From positions 1 through 64,000 of the forward strand of contig CASFCG010000012.1 of NCBI GenBank assembly GCA_949293295.1: a stretch of DNA of 64,000 bases, read 5' to 3'. The first letter of the stretch is position 1. Each line of letters begins with the position of its first letter. The stretch comes from an uncultured Cetobacterium sp. Its GTDB lineage: Bacteria; Fusobacteriota; Fusobacteriia; Fusobacteriales; Fusobacteriaceae. A program made the position numbers and the translations under genes. The notes below the pieces were generated by a model. The model searched no databases. It saw only the letters and a program-made list of their open reading frames with translations, and was not told where the DNA came from. Shown one piece after another: positions 28,519-46,574 of this stretch.

Positions 28519-31500
28519 ATGAATTATTTTAAGTTGAATGAAAAAATGCTGAAACACAACTTAAAGAATAGGCGAAGTATAACGTTGAGTTTAATTGTAG
28601 CTTATTTAATTACGGGAGAGATAGGTGAATTTTTGGATTTTGAGATTCTGGCTAGGGACTTAAGACCGAGAAAAAATAATGTAATCAATGTCGCTCCAGG
28701 GCAGAATGGTCTTAACACAAGTAAAAGTGAGAATGGAAAGGATGTAGTAAACATAGTAAAACCAAATCAAGGTGGAATTTCTCATAATAAGTTTATTGAT
28801 TTAAGTGTTGGAACAGATGGGCTTATCTTCAACAACAATGCAACTGATACAGGATACAGTTCATCACTTGGAGGGATAGTATCATTTAACCCTAACTTAA
28901 AAGGTGGAAATGCTGCCAACGCAATTTTAAATGAGGTAACAGGGTCTCAGACAACGATAGGCGGGATGGTAGAGGTTGCAGGAACAAAAGCGGATTTTAT
29001 CGTAGCGAATGAGAATGGGATAACAATAAATGGAGGAGGATTTATTAACACAAGTGGCGTAACGCTGACAACAGGTAGACCAACTGTTAATAATTCGACA
29101 ATAAATTTTGATGTAACAAAAGGTAATATCACTGTTGGAGAGGGAGGAGTTGGAACATCAGGAGACTATTTCAATTTAATCTCTCAAACAATAGACCTTC
29201 AAGGGCAGATAGCAAAAGCACAGTATGAAGGGAACAACACAGATCCAAATATAACATTATTGGCTGGGCAAAATAGAGCCACAGTGAAGAATGGTCAAGT
29301 TACATCATATGAAAGAATTGGAAATGAAAAGGCGAGTGCTGACCAAAAATATGGAATTACAGCGACAGGGTTAGGTTCAATGTATGGACAAAATATCAGA
29401 TTGATAAGTACAACAGAAGGTGTCGGAGTAAGACATGAAGGGATAGTATCCTCAAGTAAAGATATCAGTATTAATAGTGCAGGGGATATCGAAGTAGGGC
29501 ACCTTTATGCTGATAAAACTATTAATATTGAAGCAGGAAATGATTTTAAAACAATAGATGGAACTCATAAAGTGGAGAACAGGGATGAACAGAATACAAT
29601 AGGAGCCACTGATGTAAGCATAAAAGCGGACAATAAAGTTGAGTTAAATACGGATGTTCAAGCTAAACAAACAATGAATGTAACTGGTAAAGATGTTGTA
29701 AATAAAGGTGTTTTAAAAGCTGGGGAAAATGAAGGGGCAGGAAATTTAAAGATTAATGCTGGGAATTTGATAAATGACAGTGTGATAACTTCAGGAAAAG
29801 ATTTAGAGATAACAGCAGAAAATGTAACAAACCAAGCGGATGCTACAGTTGTAGCAACTGGGAATATACAAGTAACAACGGATAAAAACTTATTAAATAA
29901 AGGGATTTTGAGTGCTGGAAAAGATATGAGTTTGAAAGCCGAAACTTTAGATAATGAGGGGAAAATAACTTCAGGTGATATGTTGAATATAAGTGCTGAA
30001 ACACTTAATTCCGTACTAGCTTCAGAGGAAGCGTTGAAAGAATTTGCACAGATAGCAGATAAATATAGTCCTCAAGCGTTTGATAAAGCAACAGATGAGA
30101 AAAAAAGATTGGAAGAACTTTTGAAAACTGAAACAAACCCGGTGAAAAGAGCTGAATTACAAGGAAAAATACAAGAGCAACAAAAGATAATTGAGGAACA
30201 AAATGGGTATAAAGCAAAAATCATGGCTATTAAAGACCTGAGTTATATTACAACAAAGGGACTAAATGTTGACGGAAAAACAATAAATATTGGTGCACTT
30301 TCTTCTGTAGGCGAGAGTGGAACGATTAAAGGAGAGAACGTCAATTTAGAAAATATGACGGTAATTGGAGATTTATCTGTTACAGGAAATAATTTTACTG
30401 GAACTGGATTGAATATAGGACAAGATTTTTCGGCAAATATAGATGAATTTTTTAAAACTTTACAGAATTTTGAAGTAGGGAAAAATGCTACGATTAATGC
30501 TGGAAGTGTTGATATGTCTGGAGAAACGAAAACAGGAGAAGGCTTAGAGATAAATGCTTCTGGGATAGTTTTTGACGGTAAAGTTACTGTTGGTAGTGAT
30601 TTGACAATCAACAGAGATGGAAAACTTCAAGATGTAGACATAACAAATAAAAGTAACTTGGGAATAAGTGGAACCACTAATATAAATGCTAACAAGTTGG
30701 ATAACCAAAACTCTATTAATAGTACTGGAGGATTGGTTCTTAATGTAGATAGTGTTGCAAATAAAGAGGGAGCAACATTAGGAGGACGAGGAGATATAAA
30801 TATTAAAGGTACAACCTTTGATAATGCTGGAAAGATTACTGCAGGAAGTAATTTTGAGATAGAGGGTAAGAATGTAGGTAACAGTGGTGAGGTAAACGCA
30901 GTTGGAACTTTTGATGTGATTTTAAATGATGGATTATTCACTAATAGTGGATATATTGAGGGAGTTGGAGGAGTAACTCTTACCGGAAGTGGAACAGCTC
31001 AAAATGAAAAGGATGGAGAGCTTAAATCTGGTACAAAGATTGATGTGACAGGAAAAGATATGGTTTTCTACAATAAAGGGAAACTTACTTCCGCCAGTGG
31101 TATCACAATAGATATAAAAGATCTTTTCAGCGATGGTAATATGACCGCTATTGGAGATATTGATATAATAGTTGAACAGTTTTTACAAAATAAAAGTGCA
31201 CAATTAGTTGGAGAAACTATCGATATAACAGCAAATAAAGTTCAGGTTGCAGGAACTGTTGGAGCTCAAAATACTACTGGTATCAACATAGTTGGTAAAA
31301 ATGAAGTGCTTCTTAATGGTGCGAAATTCACTTCTAATAAGACAGATATAGATAGTGATACTGGTATAACAATTGATAAGAGAAATCAGTTTTTTGGAAA
31401 GGCAGAGATAGAAGCTAAAGAGGATTTAGTAAATAAAGGGATGCTTTTGGCAAGGGATAATCTACTTATAGTTGCAAAAAATATTATCAATGAAGTAGCT

Positions 31501-34500
31501 ACTACAATATATTCTAATGCGGATTTAGTATTGGAAGCGACAGAAAAAATCTGGAATAAACTTAAAGCTTCAATTATCGCTCAAGGTAGTATGACTTTAA
31601 CAGCTGAAAGTTTGACAAATGATGCTGGAACAATACAAGCTAAAAAAGATATAACTATAAACGCCAACACTGTAGAGAATAGAAGTAGAGTGGAGGGAGA
31701 AGGTTATAAGGTAACTGGAGAGCAATATGTAGGTAAGGCAGAAGGTTGGAGTTGGAAAGCAGGCTTTGATATGTATCATAAAGTAGAAATATGGCTTCCT
31801 AAGATTGAAGTGGATTTAAGAGTAGAGGATAAAGCGACAATTGTAACTCAAGGAAATCTTACAATAAACGGTAAAGATGGTAAGGGTTCAAAATCTAAAG
31901 TTACAAATACTGCTGGGATGATGTCAGGTAATGGGAATGTAATAATAACAGGGGATTTGAGAAATGAGACTGGATATACTGAGATGACAGTTGAAAAATA
32001 TTTATCATTAGTTAAAGTTAAACTTAGTTGGGAAACTAAAACCTTAGGAGCTGGACTTCATCTAAATGGGGGTACTAATTATGAAGGTTCTCTTCTTGGT
32101 GCAATGAGTACAGCTGGGAATAGACTTGGAGATGATAATTGTAAAGGTTACACAAAAGCCTTAAAACAACTAGCAGATAAGAATCCAGAGTTAAAAAGAG
32201 TATTAAATGTTGTATTAGGACCAGATTGGATGACTTACAATGTGGTACCGGTTGGGAAAATGGATGTAAGTAGCAAGATTCCTTTTTATGCAACAAATGG
32301 AAATGCACAGATAGCTGCAGGTAAAAACTTTAATCATTCAGGCGGAGTACTTGAAAACTTAGGAGGAGAAACTAATTCTGGAAAAACAACAGATATAACT
32401 ATTGGTGGTCATACTGTAGAAGGGTCTGTAGCAGATTTAGATATTAAGTTTAAAAATCCAAATGAGGTATTGGAAACTGACTCAATTAAGATTGTAAATA
32501 AACCAGAGATTCAAACTGGAGTAGTAACGATTATCATAGATGGGGAAGAAGTAAAAATTGATTCCTCTATGGGAACAGGAGGTTCAATAGCTGCAGCGGG
32601 AACTATTAGCTCAATTATCTTTATCGATATACCTCAAGGAAATAGTGGGATTTTTATAAAAAATGAGCCTGATCCGAATAAAAATATTAATCATCTTTTT
32701 GGAGACAATGTCGGATTTATGGACCAGGATGACTATATCAACTCAGGAAAATTCTTTGAGGATATGGGATACAATCCAGATAAGCCTACAACAGTTATTG
32801 GAGATAGTGCATATCAAAAACAACTTATAGAGAAAACAATTCAACAGGGATTAAACTATACGGGTAGTGTTTCTTACGATAATATGAGAGAGATGTTGAA
32901 TGCAGCAACAGAGGCTCAAAAAGAGTTAGGACTGGAAGTAGGAAAACCTCTTACGGCTGAACAGATAAATAATCTAGAGAAAGATATTATCTGGTATGTT
33001 GAGATGGAGGTTGAGGTAGATGGAGAGAAACACACAGTTTTAGTGCCTCAAGTGTATTTTGGAAAAGAATCAAGAGTTAAGATAGCTAACTCTGGAAAAT
33101 ATGATGTGGCAACAGGTTCCATAATAAAAGCTGAAGGAAATGTTACAATTGATGCTACAAATGTTGTAAACTCAACGGGAAGTATAACAGCTGGAACTGG
33201 AGCAGGCGGAGGAAGTGTAATAATTGTATCTGAAAAGGATATAATAAATAACAGTAATGCCAATGTTCCTGGGGGTATTCAAGCAAGTAACGGTGGACAT
33301 GTTGCTTTGAATGCAAAAAATGACATTATAATGAAAGGTGGTAATGTAAAAGCGGATGTTGTTATCGTTGATGCTGGAAACGATATTGAGATTGTAAGTG
33401 GTGTTACAAGTGACGAAGATGGAGACCAAGTAATAAAAAATGCTGCTGGAATAATTGCGGAAAGTGGAATGGTAATAAACGCGGGTAACGATTTTACAAT
33501 GAAAGGTGGAGTACTACAGGCAAATGGACATCATGTAGAGGAGCCAGTGTCAGAGGAAACAGTTTCAGATTCAACTGATGGAGTAGAAACAGAGAACAAG
33601 GCAGAAACAAAAGAGCCAGAAGTAGTAAAAGATGTAGATTATTATAAAAATCTTATATTTAAAGCAGGAAAAAAAGGACCTACAGATACTGAAAAAGATG
33701 GTGCAGAGTTATTAGAAGAGTTAGGTGCAAAAGCTGGAGAGGTCAATATCACAGCTAAGGGAAATGTAAATATAGGAGATTTAAATCTAGTACAAAGTAG
33801 TGCGACTGGCGATATAAAAGAGATGATAAAACAAGAGAAAGAGCAAAATAATGGTGTTGCAAGAGAGGATTGGACATCTGGTTATACAGAAACTGTTACA
33901 TCAGTATCGACAGGTAGCGTATTAAAAGGTGAAAGTATAGTAATCAAATCAGATAAAAATGTAACAATCCAAGGAAGTAATTTGATATCTGAAAACAATG
34001 AGGATAAGAGTAAAGCAAGCAATGGAATATCAATTGAAGCCGGAGAGAATGTAGAGATACTAGATGGAAAAGATCTGACACAAGTGTATGAAGAGAAGAT
34101 TATGAATCAGGTTATTGGATACGAAAAAGAAACGACTGAGATAAAAGGAGCATTTTCAAAAGGTTCGAATATTGTGTCGATGGGAGATATAGACATAAAA
34201 GCTAACAAAGGAAATGTCAAAGTTGTTGGAAGTAATCTGGCGTCATTGGGAGATGTTTCGATGGATGCAGCTGGTGATATCAAATTTGAAGCTGGAAAAA
34301 ATGAAGTGGAACAACACTATGAGAAATATACATCAGGAATTGTAAGTAGTAGTGCTGAAGCTGGATTATCAGGACAATACGGAGAAAACTTTAAAAATGT
34401 TGTCGCTGGTGGAAAAGGAAAACTACAACAGGACGACCTTGCAAGAACAGAGGTTACAATTGGAACAAGCCATTTTTCACAACATGATAAATCTACAACT

Positions 34501-37500
34501 TGGACAGAATCAAATCTATCTGGAAACAATATATCTATTAATGCTGGAAATACAGCTGATATCGGTGGAGTAAATATGACCGCCTCAGAAAATCTTGCAA
34601 TTAAAGCTAAAAAAGTTGAAACATCAAAATATGTGGATGAACATGAAAGTGAAACAAAAGAGAGCAGTACAGGACTTAAATTGTGGGCAGCAGGTCAGAG
34701 TGCGGCAGCAAGCTGGGGAAATCTTGGAATAGAAGCTGCAAATAGAGCGGAAAATGCAGTAGGTGCAGTTGGAGACCAAATTGGATTAGTTGGTGCACAA
34801 GTTGTAGGAGCTGCGATGAATACAGTTCTGGGAGATGCAATAACTGGAAGTGCGGGAGTCTCTTTTGTTCAAACAAATAACTGGAGCAAAACAAAAACTT
34901 CAGAGGAGAACACAATAGAGTTAACAGCTAAAAATATTAGTATTACAGCCACAGAGAGTGATATCAACTTAGCTGGTGTTAAAATGAAAGCTGGACACAC
35001 AACTGGAAATAAAGTAAAAGATAAAGACGGAAATGAGGTTGATGAGTGGGTTAACGATGGAAGTATCAGTTTGGATGCTGCAAAAGATATAAATATAACA
35101 GCTGCTAAGAAAACAGAGGAAAGTTCATTCACTAGTAATAGTTTTGAACTAGGAGTTAATGGGTATGCAGGAGTTGGTCTGACAGGTGGAGGAGTCTCAG
35201 TAGGGGCTTCAGTAAATAATAGCTATGCTTGGGGAGATAGTAGCTCATTAACTCATACAAATAGTGAGATAGTTGGAGGAAATATTGCTCTTAAATCTGG
35301 AGGAGACACAAATATTAAAGGTGGAAATGTCAATGGAGATAATGTAAATCTTGATATTGGTGGAAGTCTAAATATAGAAACAGTAAAAGATAAGAAAACC
35401 TCAACTAGTAAAGATGTAAATTTCGGAGCTAGTGTGAGTGTTGGTGTGGATACAATGGGACCTGTTGGAGGAGGAGTTAACGTTGGTTATGGTAATACTT
35501 GGGAAGATAGTGAGTTAATTGGGCAACAAAGTGGAATCATTGCTAATGGTAGCTTAAATGGAACAGTAAAAGGTGATATGAACTTAACAGGAGGAGCTAT
35601 TGGTTCAACGAAAGGAGAAGGAAGTTTAGCTGTTGGAGGAAAAGTTAATGTTAAAGATGTAGTTGCAAATGAGAAAACTGGTGGAGGTTCTGGAGGAGTC
35701 TCTGTCGGAGGAGGAGCTGGAGGAGCTAACTTGGGAATCTATGGAAGTGTAGCTGACCAGTTAGATAGAGATACAACAGCTAAAGCAACTATCGGAGGAA
35801 TAACAATAACAGGAACAGATGGTTCGATAAAAGATTTACCATCAGGAGTAAATACAGACCTAGAAAATAGTCTGACAACAGATACGCATAAAAAAATGAA
35901 AGGCGGAAACTTCGGATTTGGAGCTCCAGTGACTAAGAAAGGAGTAACAGGAACAGCAGCTAACATAAAGAACAATGCGAAAAAAGTTACAACAAAAGAT
36001 GGATGGAAACAAACAGGACAGCAATTTAAAAACCTAGGTTCAAAAGACTACTACAAAGAGGTAGGACAAGGAATCAAAGGAGGATTCAAAAAGGCTGGAC
36101 ATGATATTGCAAGTACACCAGGAAAAGTAAAAGACATAACAGTTAAAGCAGCAGAAGGAATAAAAGATGGAGCAGTTGCTGTAGGTGGAGCAATAAAGAG
36201 TGGTGCAAGCAGCTTCAAAGATAAAATCCAAAATGGAGTAGGAAACTTAAAAGATAAGTTACATAAAAATAATTCAAGTTCAGATAATATGGAGATATCA
36301 TCACCAACAAATGTAAAGCATGTTGGACATGTTGGAACTGATGGTGGATTTGGAGAAGTTAATAATATGGTTAATGGTAACAATTCAGTATCAAGTAAAC
36401 CAACATCAGGAGCTGATTCGGATGTACCAGCGCCAAACAAACCAGTAAGTGATACAACAGATGGAAAAAAAGTAACAATAGATACAAGTAAAAATGTGAA
36501 AATTGAATATGACTCTAATGAGCCAGTACGAGGAAATATAACTACTTCAGGGGCAGAATACAATCCTTCAGCGTCTAAATCTAACGAAAATTACGTTGGC
36601 GATTCATATAATGAAGGATACGGTTCATATTATCCTTCAGCGTCTAAATCTAACGAAAATTACGTTGGCGATTCATATTATGATGGAGGTAAAATTCCAA
36701 CATATGGAGATTCGGAATATTATGCTTCGGGTTCTTATAAAGAGTATCTGGATAGATATTATCCAAATAAATCAAATGGTACTTCTAGCGATGGGTTTAC
36801 AAATGGATTTATAGGCGAAAATTATAATGGAGATCTAGACAGTTCTCTTTTAAATGGTTATCTTGCACCGATACCAAATAGAGGATCAGATTTTGTAGAT
36901 GGAGGAATATACTATAGACCATCTGATGGAGTAAGTAACAATAAACCGGCTTATATAATATATGATAAAGACGGAAATGAGTACTATTTAAGTGGTGCTA
37001 CTTTTGACCCTTATACGAAAGAGTTAATTGATGCACAATATTACCCAACTGGACATAAACGACCACAGAACACAGGCTCAGATTATATAACACCGTCAAA
37101 ACCAACATATGATGATTCATATGAGACATCAAGACCTAATAAACCAGTAGACACTGATTCAGATGATTCAGCAGTGAGACCAAATAGACCAGTGGATGAC
37201 GATTCAGATACTGTAGTAAGACCAGATGATGATAGAGAAAATGACGATGAAGAGGATATTGATCCAATTAGGAGACCTAATAGACCTATTCATAATAGAC
37301 CAGCTAAGAATCAAGCGCCAGAGATTCCAAAAAGACCTGTTGTAAAACCAACAGTAAGTGGAGGATATCTGGATGTAGACCAAGAATTAGGAGAGGTATA
37401 TGATGAAATAGATAAAAATAAAAAACCAACAGTAGATCCTGGAGATAACGATTTCTCAGGTTCATTAGAAGGTGGACAAGGAAAACCAAACCTTCCAGCT

Positions 37501-37659
37501 CCAGGAGGAGAAAAAGCTGTAAATGGAGATGTGGCATCAGCGAAAGCAAAAGAACTTAGTGGAGAGAAAAAAGAACAGATAAAAGATGAATTAACATCAT
37601 TCTTTAGTTCTTTAAAAGCGAAGTTCCAAAATAAAGACAAGACAAAAGATACGAAATAG
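28519..37659 (+). CDS. TpsA exoprotein, filamentous-haemagglutinin-like adhesin (3046 aa)
   Basis: Giant secreted beta-helical protein exported by the preceding TpsB. It has an extended signal region (residues 1-50, hydrophobic core TLSLIVAYLITGEIG). The TPS domain (about 50-300) carries the diagnostic VSFNPNL (about 121) and VANENGITINGGGF (about 163). Hundreds of haemagglutinin-type beta-helix coils follow (KNVTIQGSN, SVDMSGETKTGE). An alanine-rich region lies near 2050-2130 (AASWGNLGIEAANRAENAVG). The tail from about residue 2600 is non-helical, with Ser/Asn/Tyr, then Asp/Pro-rich RPNRPVDDDSD, ending in a charged KAKELSGEKKEQIKDEL helix. I find no VENN motif, toxin-like tail or immunity gene, so an adhesin or biofilm protein is more likely than CdiA. 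A 69-bp-period in-frame repeat is at 36563-36678. Confidence 0.93.
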   Translation: MNYFKLNEKMLKHNLKNRRSITLSLIVAYLITGEIGEFLDFEILARDLRPRKNNVINVAPGQNGLNTSKSENGKDVVNIVKPNQGGISHNKFIDLSVGTDGLIFNNNATDTGYSSSLGGIVSFNPNLKGGNAANAILNEVTGSQTTIGGMVEVAGTKADFIVANENGITINGGGFINTSGVTLTTGRPTVNNSTINFDVTKGNITVGEGGVGTSGDYFNLISQTIDLQGQIAKAQYEGNNTDPNITLLAGQNRATVKNGQVTSYERIGNEKASADQKYGITATGLGSMYGQNIRLISTTEGVGVRHEGIVSSSKDISINSAGDIEVGHLYADKTINIEAGNDFKTIDGTHKVENRDEQNTIGATDVSIKADNKVELNTDVQAKQTMNVTGKDVVNKGVLKAGENEGAGNLKINAGNLINDSVITSGKDLEITAENVTNQADATVVATGNIQVTTDKNLLNKGILSAGKDMSLKAETLDNEGKITSGDMLNISAETLNSVLASEEALKEFAQIADKYSPQAFDKATDEKKRLEELLKTETNPVKRAELQGKIQEQQKIIEEQNGYKAKIMAIKDLSYITTKGLNVDGKTINIGALSSVGESGTIKGENVNLENMTVIGDLSVTGNNFTGTGLNIGQDFSANIDEFFKTLQNFEVGKNATINAGSVDMSGETKTGEGLEINASGIVFDGKVTVGSDLTINRDGKLQDVDITNKSNLGISGTTNINANKLDNQNSINSTGGLVLNVDSVANKEGATLGGRGDINIKGTTFDNAGKITAGSNFEIEGKNVGNSGEVNAVGTFDVILNDGLFTNSGYIEGVGGVTLTGSGTAQNEKDGELKSGTKIDVTGKDMVFYNKGKLTSASGITIDIKDLFSDGNMTAIGDIDIIVEQFLQNKSAQLVGETIDITANKVQVAGTVGAQNTTGINIVGKNEVLLNGAKFTSNKTDIDSDTGITIDKRNQFFGKAEIEAKEDLVNKGMLLARDNLLIVAKNIINEVATTIYSNADLVLEATEKIWNKLKASIIAQGSMTLTAESLTNDAGTIQAKKDITINANTVENRSRVEGEGYKVTGEQYVGKAEGWSWKAGFDMYHKVEIWLPKIEVDLRVEDKATIVTQGNLTINGKDGKGSKSKVTNTAGMMSGNGNVIITGDLRNETGYTEMTVEKYLSLVKVKLSWETKTLGAGLHLNGGTNYEGSLLGAMSTAGNRLGDDNCKGYTKALKQLADKNPELKRVLNVVLGPDWMTYNVVPVGKMDVSSKIPFYATNGNAQIAAGKNFNHSGGVLENLGGETNSGKTTDITIGGHTVEGSVADLDIKFKNPNEVLETDSIKIVNKPEIQTGVVTIIIDGEEVKIDSSMGTGGSIAAAGTISSIIFIDIPQGNSGIFIKNEPDPNKNINHLFGDNVGFMDQDDYINSGKFFEDMGYNPDKPTTVIGDSAYQKQLIEKTIQQGLNYTGSVSYDNMREMLNAATEAQKELGLEVGKPLTAEQINNLEKDIIWYVEMEVEVDGEKHTVLVPQVYFGKESRVKIANSGKYDVATGSIIKAEGNVTIDATNVVNSTGSITAGTGAGGGSVIIVSEKDIINNSNANVPGGIQASNGGHVALNAKNDIIMKGGNVKADVVIVDAGNDIEIVSGVTSDEDGDQVIKNAAGIIAESGMVINAGNDFTMKGGVLQANGHHVEEPVSEETVSDSTDGVETENKAETKEPEVVKDVDYYKNLIFKAGKKGPTDTEKDGAELLEELGAKAGEVNITAKGNVNIGDLNLVQSSATGDIKEMIKQEKEQNNGVAREDWTSGYTETVTSVSTGSVLKGESIVIKSDKNVTIQGSNLISENNEDKSKASNGISIEAGENVEILDGKDLTQVYEEKIMNQVIGYEKETTEIKGAFSKGSNIVSMGDIDIKANKGNVKVVGSNLASLGDVSMDAAGDIKFEAGKNEVEQHYEKYTSGIVSSSAEAGLSGQYGENFKNVVAGGKGKLQQDDLARTEVTIGTSHFSQHDKSTTWTESNLSGNNISINAGNTADIGGVNMTASENLAIKAKKVETSKYVDEHESETKESSTGLKLWAAGQSAAASWGNLGIEAANRAENAVGAVGDQIGLVGAQVVGAAMNTVLGDAITGSAGVSFVQTNNWSKTKTSEENTIELTAKNISITATESDINLAGVKMKAGHTTGNKVKDKDGNEVDEWVNDGSISLDAAKDINITAAKKTEESSFTSNSFELGVNGYAGVGLTGGGVSVGASVNNSYAWGDSSSLTHTNSEIVGGNIALKSGGDTNIKGGNVNGDNVNLDIGGSLNIETVKDKKTSTSKDVNFGASVSVGVDTMGPVGGGVNVGYGNTWEDSELIGQQSGIIANGSLNGTVKGDMNLTGGAIGSTKGEGSLAVGGKVNVKDVVANEKTGGGSGGVSVGGGAGGANLGIYGSVADQLDRDTTAKATIGGITITGTDGSIKDLPSGVNTDLENSLTTDTHKKMKGGNFGFGAPVTKKGVTGTAANIKNNAKKVTTKDGWKQTGQQFKNLGSKDYYKEVGQGIKGGFKKAGHDIASTPGKVKDITVKAAEGIKDGAVAVGGAIKSGASSFKDKIQNGVGNLKDKLHKNNSSSDNMEISSPTNVKHVGHVGTDGGFGEVNNMVNGNNSVSSKPTSGADSDVPAPNKPVSDTTDGKKVTIDTSKNVKIEYDSNEPVRGNITTSGAEYNPSASKSNENYVGDSYNEGYGSYYPSASKSNENYVGDSYYDGGKIPTYGDSEYYASGSYKEYLDRYYPNKSNGTSSDGFTNGFIGENYNGDLDSSLLNGYLAPIPNRGSDFVDGGIYYRPSDGVSNNKPAYIIYDKDGNEYYLSGATFDPYTKELIDAQYYPTGHKRPQNTGSDYITPSKPTYDDSYETSRPNKPVDTDSDDSAVRPNRPVDDDSDTVVRPDDDRENDDEEDIDPIRRPNRPIHNRPAKNQAPEIPKRPVVKPTVSGGYLDVDQELGEVYDEIDKNKKPTVDPGDNDFSGSLEGGQGKPNLPAPGGEKAVNGDVASAKAKELSGEKKEQIKDELTSFFSSLKAKFQNKDKTKDTK
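36563..36678 (+). repeat. In-frame direct repeat in the tpsA tail
   Basis: Two identical 47-bp copies (36563-36609 and 36632-36678) with a 69-bp period, encoding PSASKSNENYVGDSY twice. The period is a multiple of three, so gain or loss would keep the frame. Confidence 0.9.
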
Positions 37660-37670
37660 AGATTAAAGCT

Positions 37671-37716
37671 GTATATCCTTGAATAATCGAGGATATACGC
37701 TCCCCGCTTGGGGGAG
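37671..37716 (+). terminator. Two tandem hairpins after tpsA
   Basis: The first is GTATATCCTTG-aataat-CGAGGATATAC (37671-37698). The second is CTCCCC-gcttg-GGGGAG (37700-37716). Neither is followed by a T run, so they may mark a factor-dependent end or an RNA-stabilising structure rather than a classic intrinsic terminator. The remaining DNA to 37860 shows nothing recognisable. Confidence 0.55.
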
Positions 37717-37863
37717 TGCATAAATAAAGGAGTATCAATTCAGTAAAAATAGTAAGAGTTTTGAGGCACTAAGAAATTATTAGAAGTTTTGTGTTGTGAA
37801 AGATTATAAGAGGTTATGAAAAATAGATATAGAGATTTGGAAACTAGAAAATAGTAAGATTAC

Positions 37864-37886
37864 AAGGAGGAAGCTATAAAAATAGC
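37864..37886 (+). promoter_or_regulatory. Ribosome binding site followed by a small hairpin
   Basis: AAGGAGG (37864-37870) is 24 nt from the ATG at 37895, too far for normal use. A GCTAT-aaaa-ATAGC stem-loop (37873-37886) lies between them and would shorten the effective spacing to about 10 nt. In-frame stops exclude an earlier start. Confidence 0.45.
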
Positions 37887-37894
37887 ATAGATTA

Positions 37895-39085
37895 ATGGAT
37901 ATTAAAGATTATAGATATGTGTTGATTCCAAATATTTTAGAAAAATTTAGATGCTCAATGTGTGGTGAATGTTGTGAAAGTAAGTGGAGAATAGATATTG
38001 ATGAGAAATCCTATCAAGCAGTAAAGGAAAGATTGGAAGAGAATAAAGAGGATGTGTCAACATATATAGAGCAGAATGAAAATGGAAACTATGTAGTCAA
38101 ATTCGACGGCAAATATTGTAAATTTATCACAGATGATATAAAATGCAGGATTCATAGAGATTTTGGATGGGAGTGTTTGAGTGATACTTGTAAAATTTAT
38201 CCAAGAAATATGAGGCTGACAAGTAGAGGAATGGAAATAGGATTAGGATTTTCCTGTGGCTCAGTGGCAAAACTTTTACTTACGGATGAAAAAGTAAGTA
38301 TAAAAAAAATAAAAAAAGAGGATTATTTCTTTATGACTCCAAGAGATATTTCTTTTATAATTCCAGAAAACAATCTTAAAACAGCTGTGAACTCAAGATA
38401 TTATGAGGTAGAGGAGATGGCAATTGAGATTTTAAATCAAGAGAAAGATTTATTTACTAAATTAAGCTATCTAGAAAGAATATTAGCTGGTTTGGAGAAT
38501 GTAGCAGATGTTAGGGAGTGCAATTTTAAAGAGGTTATTGAGGGACTGGATGATTTTACAATAGAAAATCCATATACAGAGGAATATTTGGTAGATGAGA
38601 TTATAAAGGCTATTATGAAGAAATCAGAAAGAAGTGAGTCAGTGGCGGAATATTATAGAAGTCTTTTAAAGATAACATCTCTGAGTGGAGATATAAAGAA
38701 AGATAGAAAGTTTTTGAGCTGGTCAGGATATAATCTATATTCAGAAAGATTAAAAGAGTTAAAAGCATTGTGGAATAGCAAATGGGATAAGATTCTTCAA
38801 AGATATTTTCAATGTTACATCTTCAATAAGGAGATATATGATAATTCAGAGTATTTTATGTTTAAAACCACGATTTCAATGGTTATGATAAAACTTAGAA
38901 TGCTTTTAACTATAAAGTATTTGGGAAGAGAACTGACAGAGGATGAGGTAATAGCTGCGATAAAGGGTTATGAGAATGATTTTTCACATGATGGAGATTA
39001 TTTTTCAGAGTATTACAAACAAAAATATGAGAATAAAGAGGATATAAAAGAGGCAACAAGGAAACTGTTACTGATGTTCAAGTAA
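37895..39085 (+). CDS. FliB-family lysine N-methylase with N-terminal Cys cluster
   Basis: A 396-residue cytoplasmic protein. The N-terminus has a Cys cluster of the YkgJ/FliB type: FRCSMCGECCES (about residues 19-30), then C in KYCKF, C in KCRIHRD and ECLSDTCKIYPR (about 95-106). A conserved FSCGSVAKLLL follows, then a helical C-terminal domain. This arrangement is that of flagellin lysine-N-methylases (FliB), which methylate surface lysines of flagellin in Salmonella using a metal/Fe-S centre and SAM. No flagellar genes are seen here. It lies between a TpsA adhesin and the pilus operon, so those exported proteins are candidate substrates. The function in this organism is inference. Confidence 0.78.
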   Translation: MDIKDYRYVLIPNILEKFRCSMCGECCESKWRIDIDEKSYQAVKERLEENKEDVSTYIEQNENGNYVVKFDGKYCKFITDDIKCRIHRDFGWECLSDTCKIYPRNMRLTSRGMEIGLGFSCGSVAKLLLTDEKVSIKKIKKEDYFFMTPRDISFIIPENNLKTAVNSRYYEVEEMAIEILNQEKDLFTKLSYLERILAGLENVADVRECNFKEVIEGLDDFTIENPYTEEYLVDEIIKAIMKKSERSESVAEYYRSLLKITSLSGDIKKDRKFLSWSGYNLYSERLKELKALWNSKWDKILQRYFQCYIFNKEIYDNSEYFMFKTTISMVMIKLRMLLTIKYLGRELTEDEVIAAIKGYENDFSHDGDYFSEYYKQKYENKEDIKEATRKLLLMFK

Positions 39086-39285
39086 TTAAAATGAAATGGA
39101 ATAAGATGAGAGAGATTTTTCAATTTTTAATACTGAAACGAAATTTTAGAATATCACAGAAAGAGATATAAGAATTAATGGTATTTAAAAAAGTGAGATT
39201 TTAATGAATATTCTTATCATAGAAGAGAAAATCAGGTTGAGGAAGAAAAAACAATAGCTAGAGATGAAAAAAGGGAGGTGAGAGA

Positions 39286-39714
39286 ATGAAGATAAAAGCC
39301 AGAATGATGGGAGATAGAATGAATATAAATAATATGCTTTTATCGCCGACTAATCTTCAACTGACAACGAAAGTGTATTGTGAGCAGTTTCCAGTAAAAA
39401 AAAGCGTAGGTATAATGACTATTTTGGATGATTTTGAAGAGAAAGATAATTGCTTTCAGGTTGTATTAAAAAATTCTAAGGAACAAGAGCTAGGGAGAGG
39501 TTCAAAGTTTAGAACTCATTATTTGACTTTAGAAAGAGAAGGAATTGTGATTTATAACGTAAATGATATTACTTTCGAGAGTAAGGATGATTTCTATATA
39601 GTGGAGCTTTGGAATGAGGATGAGATTTTAGATAGGTATAAGTTAGAGTGTTGTGCTGAAATCTATGATGTGTATATGAATTTGTTGCCAAAAGGTAGAG
39701 TTTCATTGATATAG
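39286..39714 (+). CDS. Conserved-looking cytoplasmic protein of unknown function
   Basis: A 142-residue protein without signal peptide or membrane segments. It starts behind a near-perfect ribosome site (AGGGAGGTGA) and stops 26 bp before the chaperone gene, so it opens the pilus operon. The predicted fold is mostly beta (VGIMTILDDFEE, FQVVLKNSKEQELG, DFYIVELWNEDEILDRYKLE). The VELWNEDEILDRYKLE pattern is loosely like small beta-sandwich DUF6941-type proteins, but I do not claim membership. A role in regulating the operon or assisting FliB is a guess from position only. The 200 bp before it (39086-39285) hold no recognisable feature. Confidence 0.6.
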   Translation: MKIKARMMGDRMNINNMLLSPTNLQLTTKVYCEQFPVKKSVGIMTILDDFEEKDNCFQVVLKNSKEQELGRGSKFRTHYLTLEREGIVIYNVNDITFESKDDFYIVELWNEDEILDRYKLECCAEIYDVYMNLLPKGRVSLI

Positions 39715-39740
39715 AGGAATTAACTCATAAGGAGAAAGAG

Positions 39741-40490
39741 ATGAGATTAAAAAAATGGATATTTAGTATGTTTTTAGTTCTTACGGGACTTATATATGCT
39801 ATTGAAATAGAAAATCTTGATTTTAATGAGAGATTAGATGCTGAAGGGTATAACGAGGTCGCTTTGATAAATAAAACAACAGAGAAACAGATGTACAGAG
39901 TAAGTATCGGAAAAGGTAAAAAAAATGATGGTTCAAAATATGTGGAGGTACAACCAAAAGTAATAACTGTTATGCCATTGAGTAAAGCTAAAGTAAAACT
40001 ATTTGGAGTAGCACCACAAACAGCAGAAAAAGGAGAGTATGACTTTTTCTTTAAGGTAACACCGATATCAATTCCAGTGTTAGCAAAAAAATCAGACGGG
40101 AAACTTGTCACATCAGCTACGACAATAAATGTTGCACCAGAGGTTAGAATGTATGGTTATGTGGGAGAGGTTGATTTCCAAAAGGAGATAAAATTCAGAG
40201 GTGTAAAGTTCACAAAATCAGAGGATAAAAAGTCAGTGTTTTTTGAAGCTCAGATGGAGAATACGAGCTATGCAACTATAGATTTTGGAATAGCTTTTTA
40301 CAATGGAACAGATAAATATCTAACAAGTACTAGATTGGGAACATTAAAAGCTGGTGAAAGAAAGAGAGTAAAAGTGAAAGTGCCGAATGTAAGCGGTATT
40401 GACACTGTAAAAAGAATAGACCTTTATAGATTTGGACCAGAGGGTATGAAAGTATATAAAGTGGCAAGAGAGAAAGATGGATGGCAATAG
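39741..40490 (+). CDS. Periplasmic pilus chaperone, PapD-like, two domains
   Basis: A 249-residue periplasmic protein with signal peptide (FLVLTGLIYAIE, cleavage about residue 21). The N-terminal immunoglobulin-like domain shows the chaperone pattern: beta strand VALINKTTEKQMYRVSI, then VQPKVITVMPLSKAKVKLF (the P-rich strand preceding G1) and GEYDFFFKVTPISIPV, comparable to the DREslFWLNVrnIP region of PapD. A second Ig-like domain follows (VFFEAQMENTSYATIDFGIA, ERKRVKVKVP). Such chaperones donate a beta strand to unfolded pilins and deliver them to the usher. The pilin and usher genes follow directly, which makes the assignment strong despite low expected sequence identity to enterobacterial chaperones. 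Confidence 0.78.
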   Translation: MRLKKWIFSMFLVLTGLIYAIEIENLDFNERLDAEGYNEVALINKTTEKQMYRVSIGKGKKNDGSKYVEVQPKVITVMPLSKAKVKLFGVAPQTAEKGEYDFFFKVTPISIPVLAKKSDGKLVTSATTINVAPEVRMYGYVGEVDFQKEIKFRGVKFTKSEDKKSVFFEAQMENTSYATIDFGIAFYNGTDKYLTSTRLGTLKAGERKRVKVKVPNVSGIDTVKRIDLYRFGPEGMKVYKVAREKDGWQ

Positions 40491-40555
40491 TTTTTAAGTG
40501 AAAGAGATTTAGAGAAAAAAGTGTTATAAGTTAAAGATAAAAGACAGACGTGAGA

Positions 40556-40585
40556 ACTGGGAGTAACAAAAATAGTTATCCCAGT
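40556..40585 (+). promoter_or_regulatory. Hairpin between chaperone and pilin genes
   Basis: ACTGGGAGTAAC-aaaaata-GTTATCCCAGT forms an 11-bp stem with one bulge and no T run. It lies 65 bp after the chaperone stop, in the 314-bp gap before the pilin. It may be an RNA processing or stabilising element. The rest of the gap is AT-rich, with no clear promoter seen. Confidence 0.5.
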
Positions 40586-40804
40586 AAAAATAAAGAGAGA
40601 TAATAGATAAAGATAATAATAATTGAAAAGGGCATATTATTGGGAGAATAGAAACAAGGATAGGCTGTGAAAAAATCCGTGGAAAAAATAGTTGTATGAT
40701 TTATAAAAGTTGATTGGATAGTGAATTTAGAAATTGAGGTTGATATTAACTGAGTGAAAGCTCATTAATATATAAAAAATTATAAATTTAGGAGGATTTT
40801 CATT

Positions 40805-41350
40805 ATGAAAAAATTATTTTTAGTAACAGCATTAGCAACATTAGCAACAACAGCATTTGGAGCGACAGGACAAGTAATTGAGGAAATGAAAGCAGCAGGA
40901 GCAACATCAGCAAATATCCCAATAACTGTAGAAGGAAAAGTAATAAGTAATACAGTAGACAGATTAGTAGTTACATTTGATAACTCAGATACACCAAACG
41001 GAACAGCATTCAGATTTATATTACCAGATGCAGTTTTTGAAGAAACAGTAAAAGCAACAGCAAAGTATACAGCCAAAGTAATAGATGGAACAACTGGAGT
41101 ATCGAAAGAAGCAAAAATCTATGGGGGATTATCACAAAATGGAGCACCTGTAGCGGCAAATGCAACATCAATAGTACTTACTGATGGGTCAATAGCTTAT
41201 GATATTACAGGGATTTCACTAACAGCACCAGCAGCAAAATCAGCAGACCCAGTAACAGGAAATTTAAATGTTACATTAACAGCACCAACAGGAACAGCAG
41301 GGTCATACTCAGATAATAGTGTATCATTAAAAATATCAGCAGAAAAATAA
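40805..41350 (+). CDS. Candidate major pilin subunit
   Basis: A 181-residue exported protein with signal peptide (VTALATLATTAFG, cleavage about residue 19). The mature N-terminus has an alternating hydrophobic strand (ANIPITVEGKVIS) suited to donor-strand exchange. The C-terminus ends in a strand typical of fimbrial subunits (YSDNSVSLKISAEK). The composition is rich in Ala, Thr and Val and poor in aromatic residues, and no cysteine occurs in the mature part. Codons are strikingly uniform (GCA, ACA, GTA), which fits very high expression. The ribosome site TTTAGGAGGA is strong. It is flanked by hairpins and sits between chaperone and usher, the usual place for a major subunit. No database match was made; assignment rests on architecture and context. 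Confidence 0.75.
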   Translation: MKKLFLVTALATLATTAFGATGQVIEEMKAAGATSANIPITVEGKVISNTVDRLVVTFDNSDTPNGTAFRFILPDAVFEETVKATAKYTAKVIDGTTGVSKEAKIYGGLSQNGAPVAANATSIVLTDGSIAYDITGISLTAPAAKSADPVTGNLNVTLTAPTGTAGSYSDNSVSLKISAEK

Positions 41351-41381
41351 TATATTTCTTTGTACTTGAAATAAAAACAAG

Positions 41382-41412
41382 AGGTAGAGGAATTTTTCTC
41401 TCTACCTTTCCT
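41382..41412 (+). terminator. Partial terminator between pilin and usher genes
   Basis: AGGTAGAG-gaatttttct-CTCTACCT followed by TTCCTT. A weak T tract suggests read-through, which would give much pilin and less usher. Confidence 0.7.
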
Positions 41413-41535
41413 TGAAAAATAAATTTATTAACTCGGATGGAGGAGCGGAGAGCTTAATATTTTTTATTCTAATATTGGTATAAAAAAGCTCCTGTTTTAA
41501 GTTAATAGAATTATAAAATTATGGGGAGAATGTGC

Positions 41536-44199
41536 ATGAAGAGAAAAATAATATTAATATTTTTTATAAATCTAATACTTCTTTTTGCACAAGAGCAAGA
41601 GCTTGAATTGCAGAAATTAAAAGATCTAAAAGAGCAGAATTTGATTTCTGAAGAAGATTATGAGATTTTGAAAAATGATTTATTGGGAATATCAAATGAG
41701 AGATTATCATATTATAGTTTATCAATAAATTCAAAACTTGTTTCAAGAAAGTATAAAATAATAAATGAAAATGGAAAAACTTATTTTCCAATAAAAGAGT
41801 TCTTTGATTATATAGGATTCGTGAATTATGAAGAGAAAGATAAAAGATTAGTAGTATATTTAGGGAATAGTCTGACAAAAAGAGAGATTGACTTAGAAAA
41901 AGATGGATTATATAGGGATGGTGTGCTATACATAAGCGAAGAGAGTTTTAAAAAGATATTTTTAAGCTATTTTGAGATGAATAAACAGGATAGGAAACTG
42001 TTTGTTAGACTTGCTTTTGACACGCCAAAAGAGATAGAAGCACTTGTTCTTGCAACTCAGGAAAAACTGAATTACGAGAAGGATGAAGATGTTTATATAT
42101 ACAACTCTAAAAGAGGTTTGTTTGATTTAGGTTATGCTAAGTTTAATTTCTCACAAAATTTTTCAAAAACAGCTGGAGAGGATAAGTATAAAGCTGATTG
42201 GAGCTCATCAATAGGATATCAAGGTGGATTGCTATACGGGGAGATATCTTTAGACTATGATATCAAAAATAATGAACTTGGAAACATCAGTTTGAAATAT
42301 ACTGATATTTGGAAGTATCATAGTTTGGATATAGTTTCATCGAGATATGGAAAGGGTAGAGCTTTTGGTATTAATTTTTATAAGGATAAGAGTTTCTATG
42401 ATGATGGTGGAGAGATAGTTATCAGTAGAGATGTTCCTATTGGAAGTAGAGTAGAACTTATATATTTGGGACAGGTAATAGAGATACAAGATGAAACAGA
42501 TGGAAAGGTAAGTTTTAAAAATCCATTGATTAGAACAGACCAAACCTACACTTTAAAAATCTATACTCCAGATGGAAAGATTACAGAGAGTGAGATAAAA
42601 ACAACGGATAACTACAATCAACAAAAAAGGCATGAGGTAGAATATAAGCTATCAGTAAATGAAAATAAAAGTTATGATAGATTTAATATAGATGCTAACG
42701 TCTACTATGGTCTTACAGACAACTTGACAATGGGAGTTTCATACGGAAGAATGCCGACTGAATTGACCTCAATGGAAGGAAAAAATAAAGTTGAATATTT
42801 GAATACAGTTGGAGCGAATTTGACCTATGCTGGAAACATTTATTCCTTGGCTTATACACTTAATGCGGGAGGAAATTTTACTTTAGATGATAAAGAGATT
42901 CCAGTTGCCTCTGAAACGGGAACGAAAAAGGTATCTACACTTGATAGCTATAATTATAACTATTTAATGCAATTGAATTATAGATGGTTTAAGTTTATAT
43001 ATCAATATAATGGATATGGAGAGTTTTTTGAACAGGAGGATGCTCACAGTATTGAGGCACAGTACTCCACAAGTTATCTGACTTTAGGTTACAGTTGGGA
43101 TAAAACAAATTACAGGATAAAGGGAAGAAAGAGCGAAGTAAACTCAGATGCGACGCTAAATCTTAATTATAGTTGGAACTCATTCCTATTTAACTTTGGA
43201 ACAACTTATGATATAGAGAATGAGAAACAGGGAAATTATACAGCAAGTATCTATTATAGTGGTTGGCAAAACTTTACAGTAAGATTAGAGGGAATTTTGT
43301 CAGATGATGCAAAAACATATGAGACAAAATTATCGTTGTACAATAGTAACTATGGTGGATTGTTTAATTTCAGTGGTGATATCTCCTATTCGAATGTAAA
43401 TAAAGAGAGGTTCACTTTGACAGCTAATTTAAAACTTAGAGATTGGTTGAATATCGGAAACTCATTTGATGATAAAGGGTCAGCAAGCCATACAATCGGT
43501 GTCAACAAGGTTATTGATTTGAGAAATCCACTGGCAAATATTGATAGTTCAAGCAGTTCAAGGGTAAAAGTTGTAACTTTCGTAGATGAAAATAATAATG
43601 ATAAGTTTGACTTTGGTGAAGAGGTATTGCCAGGTGTAACAGTTGGATTATCTGATATGACAGGAACCACTGATGAGAATGGAACATGTATGTTCTACGG
43701 TATTGCAAATGCTATTGAATATGATTTGAAAGTGGTTGTTAAAAAACCATCATTAACGGTTGGAAATAAGAGATTAAAAGTAAAAAGTAGTTTCACTTCA
43801 ACGGTTGAAGCATATGTTCCGATAAAACCTCTTCTATCTTTGTCGGGATATGTTGAGATTGACGAGCAACTTGGATTGGTTGGAGATGAGAGAGTGGAGT
43901 TCTTAAATAACTTGATTGTTGAACTTAAAGATTTAAATGGTAAAGTTATTGAAACAACTGTTCCAGATAATGAAGGTATATTTGAGATGAGTGGACTTTT
44001 CCCAAGTGATTATTATGTAGAGGTTACATATGTTGGAACAAAATATGAGCTAAAATCAATCAAAAAACAAGTTGAATTATACTATTCTAAGATTGATAAC
44101 AGAAATAAAATCACGTTAAAGGTTGGAAATAGTTTTGCTATTGAGATACCAGATAAACGAATGGCAAAAAGAATGGCGAAAGCAGGAGGTGCTGAATGA
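41536..44199 (+). CDS. Outer-membrane usher of a divergent chaperone-usher pilus
   Basis: An 887-residue outer-membrane protein with signal peptide (ILIFFINLILLFAQ). The mature N-terminus begins with a SHOCT-like helical pair (LKDLKEQNLISEEDYEILKN). An usher-like N-terminal domain follows (about 60-150; YFPIKEFFDYIGFVNYEE, YISEESFKKIFLSYF). A barrel of about 190-680 contains the most telling segment near 298-350, DVPIGSRVELIYLGQVIEIQ and FKNPLIRTDQTYTLKIYTPDG, the conserved usher pattern of a Gly/Pro turn, vector-like strand and tyrosine-rich closing strand. From about 684 two carboxypeptidase-regulatory/CnaB-like sandwich domains follow (FVDENNNDKFDFGEEVLPG), as in CS1-type ushers. The start at 41536 (MKRKII) has GGGGAGA at 6 bp; the ATG at 41521 lies upstream of that site. 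The gene overlaps the next by 4 bp. Confidence 0.8.
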   Translation: MKRKIILIFFINLILLFAQEQELELQKLKDLKEQNLISEEDYEILKNDLLGISNERLSYYSLSINSKLVSRKYKIINENGKTYFPIKEFFDYIGFVNYEEKDKRLVVYLGNSLTKREIDLEKDGLYRDGVLYISEESFKKIFLSYFEMNKQDRKLFVRLAFDTPKEIEALVLATQEKLNYEKDEDVYIYNSKRGLFDLGYAKFNFSQNFSKTAGEDKYKADWSSSIGYQGGLLYGEISLDYDIKNNELGNISLKYTDIWKYHSLDIVSSRYGKGRAFGINFYKDKSFYDDGGEIVISRDVPIGSRVELIYLGQVIEIQDETDGKVSFKNPLIRTDQTYTLKIYTPDGKITESEIKTTDNYNQQKRHEVEYKLSVNENKSYDRFNIDANVYYGLTDNLTMGVSYGRMPTELTSMEGKNKVEYLNTVGANLTYAGNIYSLAYTLNAGGNFTLDDKEIPVASETGTKKVSTLDSYNYNYLMQLNYRWFKFIYQYNGYGEFFEQEDAHSIEAQYSTSYLTLGYSWDKTNYRIKGRKSEVNSDATLNLNYSWNSFLFNFGTTYDIENEKQGNYTASIYYSGWQNFTVRLEGILSDDAKTYETKLSLYNSNYGGLFNFSGDISYSNVNKERFTLTANLKLRDWLNIGNSFDDKGSASHTIGVNKVIDLRNPLANIDSSSSSRVKVVTFVDENNNDKFDFGEEVLPGVTVGLSDMTGTTDENGTCMFYGIANAIEYDLKVVVKKPSLTVGNKRLKVKSSFTSTVEAYVPIKPLLSLSGYVEIDEQLGLVGDERVEFLNNLIVELKDLNGKVIETTVPDNEGIFEMSGLFPSDYYVEVTYVGTKYELKSIKKQVELYYSKIDNRNKITLKVGNSFAIEIPDKRMAKRMAKAGGAE

Positions 44200-44807
44200 A
44201 AAGAGTGATAATATGTTTATTGATGCTTACTACTCTTTTGTTTTCTGCTGATGATGGGAATAGCTCTGCCAATAATGGAAATAGCAATGGAAGTGGGATA
44301 GAGTTGACACCACCTATCCCATTGCCACCAGAATTGACGAATCCAGAAACTAAAGATGATTACACAATCCCAGAGATAAAAAAGGAGAGAGTTCCAAATC
44401 TAGAGGGAAATGAACTGAGATATCTAGAGCACACTTATACAGTTATGATGGAATCGAAAGTTGATTTATACATACCACTTGAGGTTATAACAGATATAGA
44501 TATTGATGCTACAGTTATAGGAAAACAAGTGAAAGAGATACCTTTTGAGATAGAGCTTAATAGGACACCGGAGAAAAAAGATTACTACTCTATCAAATAT
44601 AGTGAGAGTGTGATAGATATTGATAATGACGGAAAACCAGATACGTATATTCACTCACCTAAATATGTCAACGAAAGAATAGTTAAAGATAACTATGTAA
44701 AGATATATGGAGAGAATATATCTAAGGCAGGAAAACATACAAAGGATGTTTATATAACTGTTGAGGTTGGAGATACAGCAGAAACAACAGAAAAAAAAGA
44801 TAAATAA
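44196..44807 (+). CDS. Exported minor pilus subunit candidate, DxDxDG motif
   Basis: A 203-residue protein with signal peptide (LLMLTTLLFSADD). After a low-complexity Ser/Asn/Gly and Pro segment (about 20-50), the protein is beta-rich. It contains DIDNDGKPD (about 147-155), a calcium-binding-type loop, and ends with HTKDVYITVEV, a strand typical of subunit C-termini, followed by a charged tail. The gene starts within the usher stop (ATGA overlap), behind AGGAGGT. I do not recognise a named family. A role as minor subunit or adaptor is inferred from operon position and the strand pattern. Confidence 0.62.
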   Translation: MKRVIICLLMLTTLLFSADDGNSSANNGNSNGSGIELTPPIPLPPELTNPETKDDYTIPEIKKERVPNLEGNELRYLEHTYTVMMESKVDLYIPLEVITDIDIDATVIGKQVKEIPFEIELNRTPEKKDYYSIKYSESVIDIDNDGKPDTYIHSPKYVNERIVKDNYVKIYGENISKAGKHTKDVYITVEVGDTAETTEKKDK

Positions 44808-44818
44808 GGAGATGAGTT

Positions 44819-45313
44819 ATGAGAGTTTTAATTCTATTTTTAACTATTATCATCACGAATCTATCCTATTCTGCTCTTAGATTGAAAATTATAGAACCAA
44901 TCAGGTTTGGTGAAGTGGATATAAAGGCGGTTGGAGACAGCGTTGTTGGTCAGGGAGCTATAGAGATATTTTCTGATGATCTGGAGAACGATAAGGACAA
45001 AAAATTTATCTTTAGATTTCCTAAAAAAGGCTTGATGACAAATAAAAAAAGATGGGTAGAGATAGAGAAGTATATCATGAAAGATAGTGATAAGGAGTTT
45101 AAACTTACTAGAGATAAAAAGATTGTGAAAATCTACGCTCTGATAAAAAGGTCGAGTTTAAATAGTCAGTTGATATCAGGTGATGATTTACAAGGGGAGT
45201 ATATCGGATATGTTCCAATTGTGGTAGAACAGTATGGAAAACCTATAATAGTGGATAATTCTTCTGAGTCTGATGAGAAAAAGCCAGAAACGGAAGTTAA
45301 GGAGAGCAAATGA
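44819..45313 (+). CDS. Exported minor pilin-like protein
   Basis: A 164-residue protein with signal peptide (ILFLTIIITNLSYSA, cleavage about residue 20). The mature N-terminus LRLKIIEPIRFGEVDIKAVG with later QGAIEIFSDDL and GEYIGYVPIVVEQYG is the pattern of several fimbrial-subunit families: first strand with a FG motif, and last strands GxYxGxxxVxV. A charged, disordered tail (SSESDEKKPETEVKESK) follows. It has its own GGAG ribosome site, 12 bp after the previous stop, and its end overlaps the LysM gene by 4 bp. Minor subunit is the best reading; an accessory assembly factor is possible. Confidence 0.65.
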   Translation: MRVLILFLTIIITNLSYSALRLKIIEPIRFGEVDIKAVGDSVVGQGAIEIFSDDLENDKDKKFIFRFPKKGLMTNKKRWVEIEKYIMKDSDKEFKLTRDKKIVKIYALIKRSSLNSQLISGDDLQGEYIGYVPIVVEQYGKPIIVDNSSESDEKKPETEVKESK

Positions 45314-46119
45314 AAAGGATATTGTTTAGTTATTTTATAATAGTGTCGCTTGTTTATTCACAGATATTGGAAGCAGATATAATGGAGAAGGATAATAAAC
45401 TTAGAATAAAGATAAGACCAGCTAATAAAAATGAGGCTTTATCAGCTGAAATAGATGAAGCACCAGTGCCGAAAGTGGAGGAAAAACCAAAGTTTATAAA
45501 ATATATAGTTTCAAAAGGTGATACTCTGATGGGAATAGCACGAAGATATAAAGATGCCTATGATAATAGTGAGTCTTTGGCAAGTGTTGTGAATCAAATC
45601 TACTCGGATAACCCAGAGATGAGAAAAGGGACAACTCTTGAGATAGGACAGGTAATAGATATAAGAGTTCTGGTTAGTGGTAGAGAGGAATCAGAGAGTA
45701 GTAGGTCAAGTTTGAAAAAGTATATAGTGCAAAGAGGAGATACACTATTTAAGATAGCACAGAGATTTAAGAGTGGTTATGAGAATAGTGAATCTTTAGC
45801 AAGTGTAGTAAAACAAATCTACCTAGACAACCCGGAGATAAGAAAAGGAAGTTATCTGAGAATAGGACAGGTGGTAGATGTAAGAGTTTCAGCTGATAAT
45901 GAAAATGAGTTTGAAAATAGTAAATTAAGTTTTAAAAAATATGTAGTACGAAGAGGAGATACTCTATTTAGGATAGCTCGAAGATTTAGAGATAACTATC
46001 CAAACCTTACAGAAACAGCTGATATAGTAGAACAGATAAAACAGGATAATCTGTGGAAAAGGGATTTTAATACACTTGAGCCTGGTGAGATATTAAATAT
46101 TAAAGATGATGTAAGATGA
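45310..46119 (+). CDS. Periplasmic protein with three LysM-type domains
   Basis: A 269-residue protein with signal peptide (ILFSYFIIVSLVYSQ). Three consecutive repeats of about 57 residues start with YIVSKGDTLMGIARRYK (about 74), YIVQRGDTLFKIAQRFK (about 139) and YVVRRGDTLFRIARRFR (about 212). Each ends in a GQV/GEI xxI strand. This is LysM with an insertion of about 13 residues (NSESLASVVNQIYSD) between helix 1 and helix 2. LysM binds peptidoglycan glycan chains. The gene overlaps both neighbours by 4 bp, so it is an integral part of the pilus operon. An anchoring or positioning role for the usher or pilus base is inferred; enterobacterial chaperone-usher operons do not usually carry one. 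Confidence 0.85.
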   Translation: MKRILFSYFIIVSLVYSQILEADIMEKDNKLRIKIRPANKNEALSAEIDEAPVPKVEEKPKFIKYIVSKGDTLMGIARRYKDAYDNSESLASVVNQIYSDNPEMRKGTTLEIGQVIDIRVLVSGREESESSRSSLKKYIVQRGDTLFKIAQRFKSGYENSESLASVVKQIYLDNPEIRKGSYLRIGQVVDVRVSADNENEFENSKLSFKKYVVRRGDTLFRIARRFRDNYPNLTETADIVEQIKQDNLWKRDFNTLEPGEILNIKDDVR

Positions 46120-46529
46120 GAAAACTATATGTGGTAATATTTATTCTAATGAGCATGAGAGTATGGGGATATATAAATATCTATCCGGCAGAGTTTGATA
46201 AGGATATAACTCACGGAGCTGATGGAAAGTTTAGATTGTATAATAGGTTGAATAAACCTGTTAAATATAGAATCTATCTTGAAGAAGAGAGTGAGAAAAA
46301 TAGTATGTTGGATTGGATAGAGATATATCCCACTACCATCTTTTTAAAGCCCCTAGAATCAAAAGAGATAAAAATCTTAATTACGCCCAAAAAGGGTGCA
46401 AAAGATGGAGATTATAGTGCTAGGTTGGTTGTAAAACAGATAAATATACCGAGAGAGATGAAAGAGAAAAAAGTGAATTTTTTAACGATATTAAAGCTAA
46501 AGTTAAAAGGGCGGATAAAAAATAAATAG
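46116..46529 (+). CDS. Single-domain PapD-like chaperone
   Basis: A 137-residue protein with signal peptide (VIFILMSMRVWGY). The mature part is a single immunoglobulin-like domain: INIYPAEFDKDI, FRLYNRLNKPVKYRIYLEEE, IEIYPTTIFLKPLESKEIKI and GDYSARLVVKQI. The order of strands and the P-x-L-x-P-x-x-S/K step match the first domain of pilus chaperones, but the second domain is absent; the tail is short and basic (LKLKLKGRIKNK). The tail could remain as a tether or bind acidic partners. It overlaps the LysM gene by 4 bp. It may be specific for the large adhesin encoded next. Confidence 0.7.
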   Translation: MRKLYVVIFILMSMRVWGYINIYPAEFDKDITHGADGKFRLYNRLNKPVKYRIYLEEESEKNSMLDWIEIYPTTIFLKPLESKEIKILITPKKGAKDGDYSARLVVKQINIPREMKEKKVNFLTILKLKLKGRIKNK

Positions 46530-46556
46530 TAAGGGGGAGAATCTCTCTTACTTTTT
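46528..46556 (+). terminator. Attenuator-like hairpin before the adhesin gene
   Basis: AGTAAGGGGG-agaat-CTCTCTTACT (10-bp stem with two G-U pairs) followed by TTTTT. It begins at the stop codon of the single-domain chaperone and lies 22 bp before the next start. Partial termination here would lower adhesin level. Confidence 0.7.
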
Positions 46557-46574
46557 CATAAGGAGAAAGGATTT

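Follow-up and report, generated by a model that had tools for sequence, protein, structure and literature searches.

What a FliB-type lysine methylase would modify in a bacterium without flagellin is the question raised by one gene in a 64,000-nucleotide stretch of DNA from an uncultured Cetobacterium sp. (the window; genome G000). To our knowledge, FliB has been named and understood only as a modifier of flagellin. The gene (37,895–39,085, plus strand, as for all features below unless stated) encodes a protein of 396 amino acids that scores 135.2 bits (E 3.9e-39) against the NCBIfam equivalog NF038110 (Lys_methyl_FliB, flagellin lysine-N-methylase; curated cut-off 85 bits) and aligns to positions 1–371 of the 373 in that model. 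This full-length match bears out the family assignment made in an earlier sequence-only reading of the locus. Pfam and NCBIfam scans returned one family besides FliB, the CxxCxxCC putative zinc/iron-chelating proteins (PF03692), which matches the N-terminal part of the protein at 26.8 bits (cut-off 23 bits); the CX2CX2CC spacing of the window protein fits this general model, but the protein has about 290 further residues and matches FliB over its full length. It is predicted to be cytosolic. With its confident structure model (pLDDT 86), Foldseek returned nothing below E 1 and a second structural search gave a best Z score of 3.5, none of the listed matches being a solved structural relative; a PDB sequence search likewise found no credible match. 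A terminator scan of 37,400–39,900 detected none and was not informative.

The sequence-only reading had also described the region as devoid of flagellar genes. For flagellin, the flagellar gene that was searched for, this holds genome-wide: PF00669 was not found in G000 (82.8% complete), nor in the three other genomes that encode a FliB of this type (G019, G026 and G028). As no flagellin was found in the genome, we claim for this ORF membership of the FliB superfamily and not the name flagellin methylase. Fusobacteriota are usually regarded as a non-motile phylum; six of its genomes (G039, G040, G045, G046, G062 and G063) contain flagellin genes, up to nine each.

The [4Fe-4S] motif CX4CX3CC, defined in Salmonella FliB (PMC8598068), is present in all 23 relatives with which the cysteines were compared (FliB proteins from Clostridium, Paenibacillus, Enterobacterales, Photobacterium and others). 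The two motifs that had first pointed to FliB, CSMCGECCES (residues 20–29) and CKIYPR (residues 99–104; 38,189–38,206), are both there, but the spacing of the first is not the canonical one: the cluster C20-SM-C23-GE-C26-C27 (37,952–37,975), aligned with canonical relatives, reads CX2CX2CC, and a two-residue deletion common to all four clade members has removed the aligned second cysteine. C23 is a nearby substitute in the window protein, and this site is serine in the other three. Seven of the eight cysteines invariant among the 23 relatives are retained, including C75, C84, C99 and C121, which are invariant in 27 of 27 aligned sequences. W31, I33, I35, D36, G91, P103 and R104 are invariant alongside these seven (C99, P103 and R104 also throughout a 25-sequence alignment, A3), and the otherwise invariant G30 has been lost. 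The altered motif could modify or abolish the activity.

The four proteins, which come from a survey of 98 Fusobacteriota genomes, are mutually 46–65% identical, and each exceeds the NF038110 cut-off. They form a monophyletic group (support 100/100) on a very long stem branch of 2.8 changes per column; since several other branches of the tree are also long, the place of the clade within the FliB family is unsure. The phylum has a fifth FliB (in G046), which is canonical in type and encoded in a genome that has flagellin genes and lacks the partner gene described below. A single-sequence search of genome contigs with the window FliB gave no matches, an alignment-based contig search recovered 23 distant FliB loci and no close-clade members, and a plasmid search yielded only two distant enterobacterial matches. 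We take the clade to be real and diverged, with a new partner that is always present and a particular adhesin locus.

The partner is p142 (39,286–39,714), which encodes 142 amino acids and is the gene immediately after fliB in each of the four carriers. A profile search of the 98 Fusobacteriota genomes found p142 in these four and in none of the other 94. The sequence-only reading, whose account of the ORFs omitted p142, had placed fliB between tpsA and a pilus operon; that order is correct, but p142 intervenes and fliB does not directly adjoin the pilus genes. A Pfam scan assigned p142 to no family. Its AlphaFold model is an Ig-like beta sandwich (pLDDT 75.7), no signal peptide was seen at its N-terminus and the protein is predicted to be cytosolic. 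The matches from a fold search were all generic beta sandwiches (best 6oe6, Z 8.0), and for this reason we draw no function from them. A plasmid search for p142 found none. A role for fliB-p142 as a TpsA/CDI immunity pair was considered and rejected, as the pair is conserved while the C-termini of TpsA differ, and it is unlinked from TpsA in G019.

The adhesin locus is a two-partner-secretion (TPS) block upstream of fliB. Its first conserved gene (25,778–26,719) encodes an OmpA-like protein of 313 amino acids with a weak, below-cut-off match to PF00691; orthologues with 45–47% identity occur, among 61 Fusobacteriaceae, only in G019, G026 and G028 besides the window genome. The outer-membrane secretion pore TpsB follows (26,778–28,460; 560 amino acids), with PF03865 (ShlB, 260 bits), PF08479 and PF17287, two of its domains being POTRA domains. 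A gap of 58 bases separates it from an ORF of 3046 amino acids (28,519–37,659) that encodes the TpsA exoprotein, a filamentous adhesin, and a large TpsA after a TpsB with these domains identifies a TPS locus. This close class of TpsB (58–61% identity) is found in the same four of the 61 Fusobacteriaceae, and all remaining matches are at most 34% identical. The N-terminal 300 residues of TpsA are 56–60% identical to those of the other three carriers, and phmmer aligns the window TpsA with that of G028 at 1144 bits. A genomic association beyond the window strain, on which the sequence-only reading had made its proposal depend, therefore exists: fliB-p142, this TpsB class and the OmpA-like gene share the same four genomes of 61.

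Gene order varies among the carriers. In G028 the OmpA-like gene is followed by chaperone-usher pilus genes, tpsB, tpsA, a WG-repeat protein gene, fliB, p142, an Rrf2-type regulator and a second tpsA, a set that appears operon-like because the WG-repeat gene and fliB overlap. G026 has a similar layout, except that tpsA is followed by an extra 617-residue ORF and p142 by a glycosyltransferase-like gene; in its available sequence (L010, L049 and L062) the module TpsA and the usher are each split into several ORFs. The WG-repeat protein (PF14903; L008 8571–9902 and L010 10,621–11,976) lies between TpsA and fliB in G028 and G026 and follows TpsA in G019; the window has no similar ORF, and has no pilus genes between the OmpA-like gene and tpsB. 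In G019 the OmpA-pilus-TpsB-TpsA-WG block lies at 739–761 kb of contig C3 and fliB-p142 at 1222 kb, so that about 460 kb separates two loci that are both retained. Physical linkage explains the association in the other three genomes, which leaves G019 as the only independent case of co-occurrence. Were the TPS block distributed randomly, a genome carrying an unlinked fliB-p142 pair would have the block as well with a probability of about 3 in 60, and we regard this co-retention as suggestive but not as proof. The window genome comprises 1.175 Mb at 83% completeness, yet has retained the module; other genomes of its genus span 1.7–3.1 Mb, all but one being at least 2.1 Mb. A second TpsB in the window (60,990–62,642, minus strand) is 31% identical to the first and has no large TpsA ORF beside it there.

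Given that flagellin is absent and that the clade occurs only in genomes encoding a giant secreted adhesin of this one type, the adhesin is probably the new target of the enzyme. Our leading reading, to which we give a little under an even chance, is that a FliB-family lysine methylase has been redirected from flagellin to TpsA with p142 as its partner. FliB would act in the cytosol with SAM and an Fe–S cluster held by C20, C26 and C27 plus, in the window strain, C23 or another conserved cysteine. Many lysines of unfolded or partly folded TpsA would be methylated ahead of Sec export, and the methylated protein would then be secreted through TpsB. Like FliS in the Salmonella model, the small Ig-like p142 could serve as a dedicated cytosolic partner, holding or presenting the substrate, and the methylated adhesin would be more hydrophobic. 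Salmonella FliB, a SAM-dependent lysine methyltransferase, needs a [4Fe-4S] cluster and acts in the cytosol, ahead of export, with no sequence consensus (PMC8598068), and methylation of flagellin increases surface hydrophobicity and adhesion (PMC7181671). The module TpsAs show no lysine enrichment, with 8.4–8.9% (three TpsAs adjoining the module TpsB and the N-terminal piece from G026) against about 7.7–10.1% in TpsAs beside other TpsBs.

The sequence-only reading had named the pilin, an adhesin or TpsA as possible substrates. A non-flagellin surface protein fits the evidence, and the gene content of the carriers favours TpsA over pilin as the candidate. It seems quite unlikely to us that the neighbouring operons supply the substrate instead, as a chaperone-usher pilin or some other surface protein. 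In G019, G026 and G028, tpsB is immediately preceded by a chaperone-usher operon, which there co-occurs with fliB nearly as well as the TPS genes do; another (39,741–50,080) lies downstream of p142 in the window, and the OmpA-like gene co-occurs with fliB as perfectly as TpsB does. However, the usher beside TpsB, although 54–55% conserved across those three genomes, is without a close counterpart in G000, and the window operon is of a different chaperone-usher type. Homologues of the window usher occur in 35 of the 98 Fusobacteriota genomes, mostly without fliB. Given this distribution and the difference in type, the neighbouring pilus is a poor guide to the substrate, and we rejected it as a conserved partner of fliB and place it outside the conserved module. 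The window pilin also contains a mere 12 lysines. The usher-like protein of the window (41,521–44,199) matched no Pfam usher model.

FliB and p142 could also form a self-contained pair, with p142 as substrate or second subunit and with a cytosolic target unrelated to the adhesin; both proteins look cytosolic, and p142 is the strictest partner, being adjacent in four of four genomes even where the TPS block is elsewhere. We consider this unlikely, as the pair was never seen without the TpsBA class in our sample and p142, with only two invariant lysines, would be a poor target for multi-lysine methylation. The very long stem branch and the loss of both the aligned second cysteine and G30 would be expected if the protein were a divergent Fe–S or metal-binding relative no longer active as a methylase, but seven cysteines and seven further invariant residues have been kept at only 46–65% identity and the curated equivalog cut-off is passed in all four genomes, which makes such a loss rather improbable. 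TPS loci are often variable islands, and fliB-p142 could be passenger cargo of one, with no functional tie to TpsA, as the varying gene order might suggest; the co-retention of unlinked loci in G019 and the exact match of presence and absence across 61 genomes argue against this, and we hold it to be quite unlikely.

The proposed methylation of TpsA has parallels in two known systems. The window protein resembles Salmonella FliB, as captured by NF038110, in its full-length match, cysteine-rich N-terminal cluster, four downstream cysteines and predicted cytosolic location, but differs in the two-residue deletion with the missing aligned second cysteine, in a genome without flagellin, and in the constant p142 partner and the link to two-partner secretion. 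Multi-lysine methylation of a giant surface adhesin would be shared with KmtA and with the rickettsial outer-membrane PKMTs, which act on AtaA and OmpB, respectively. KmtA, a different methyltransferase, methylates more than 130 lysines on the adhesin AtaA (PMC11784438). The targets of these enzymes are autotransporters, whereas the candidate here is a TPS exoprotein, and they are set apart by their description as AdoMet-binding PKMTs, with FliB unmentioned as a relative (PMC11784438). In the open-access library searched, we found no paper on FliB in Fusobacterium and none on lysine methylation of any two-partner-secretion protein. A FliB clade with a rebuilt Fe–S site that methylates a TPS adhesin before export with the help of the dedicated adaptor p142 would be unprecedented on two counts, as an Fe–S lysine methylase with a non-flagellar surface protein as its substrate and as a case of lysine methylation in two-partner secretion; this full account is tentative, and somewhat less probable than an even chance.

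Should a TPS adhesin prove to be the substrate of this clade, pre-export methylation of lysines on surface proteins would be a more general route for tuning adhesion, with two or more enzyme families performing it. The three-cysteine and four-cysteine clusters in close homologues provide a natural contrast that could help to probe the proposed radical-type methyl transfer. In many genomes without flagella, at least 14 Clostridiaceae among them, the automatic annotation "flagellin lysine-N-methylase" would also be a misnomer. The Fusobacteriota clade is not the only case of FliB without flagellin: of 187 Clostridiaceae genomes, 103 encode FliB (up to seven copies), and flagellin is missing from 14 of the 103. 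Clostridiaceae have no outer membrane, so the FliB targets in the flagellin-less members must differ. In several Clostridiaceae (for example L018, L025, L028, L031 and L034), FliB occupies comparable chromosomal positions, with the same two genes downstream of it.
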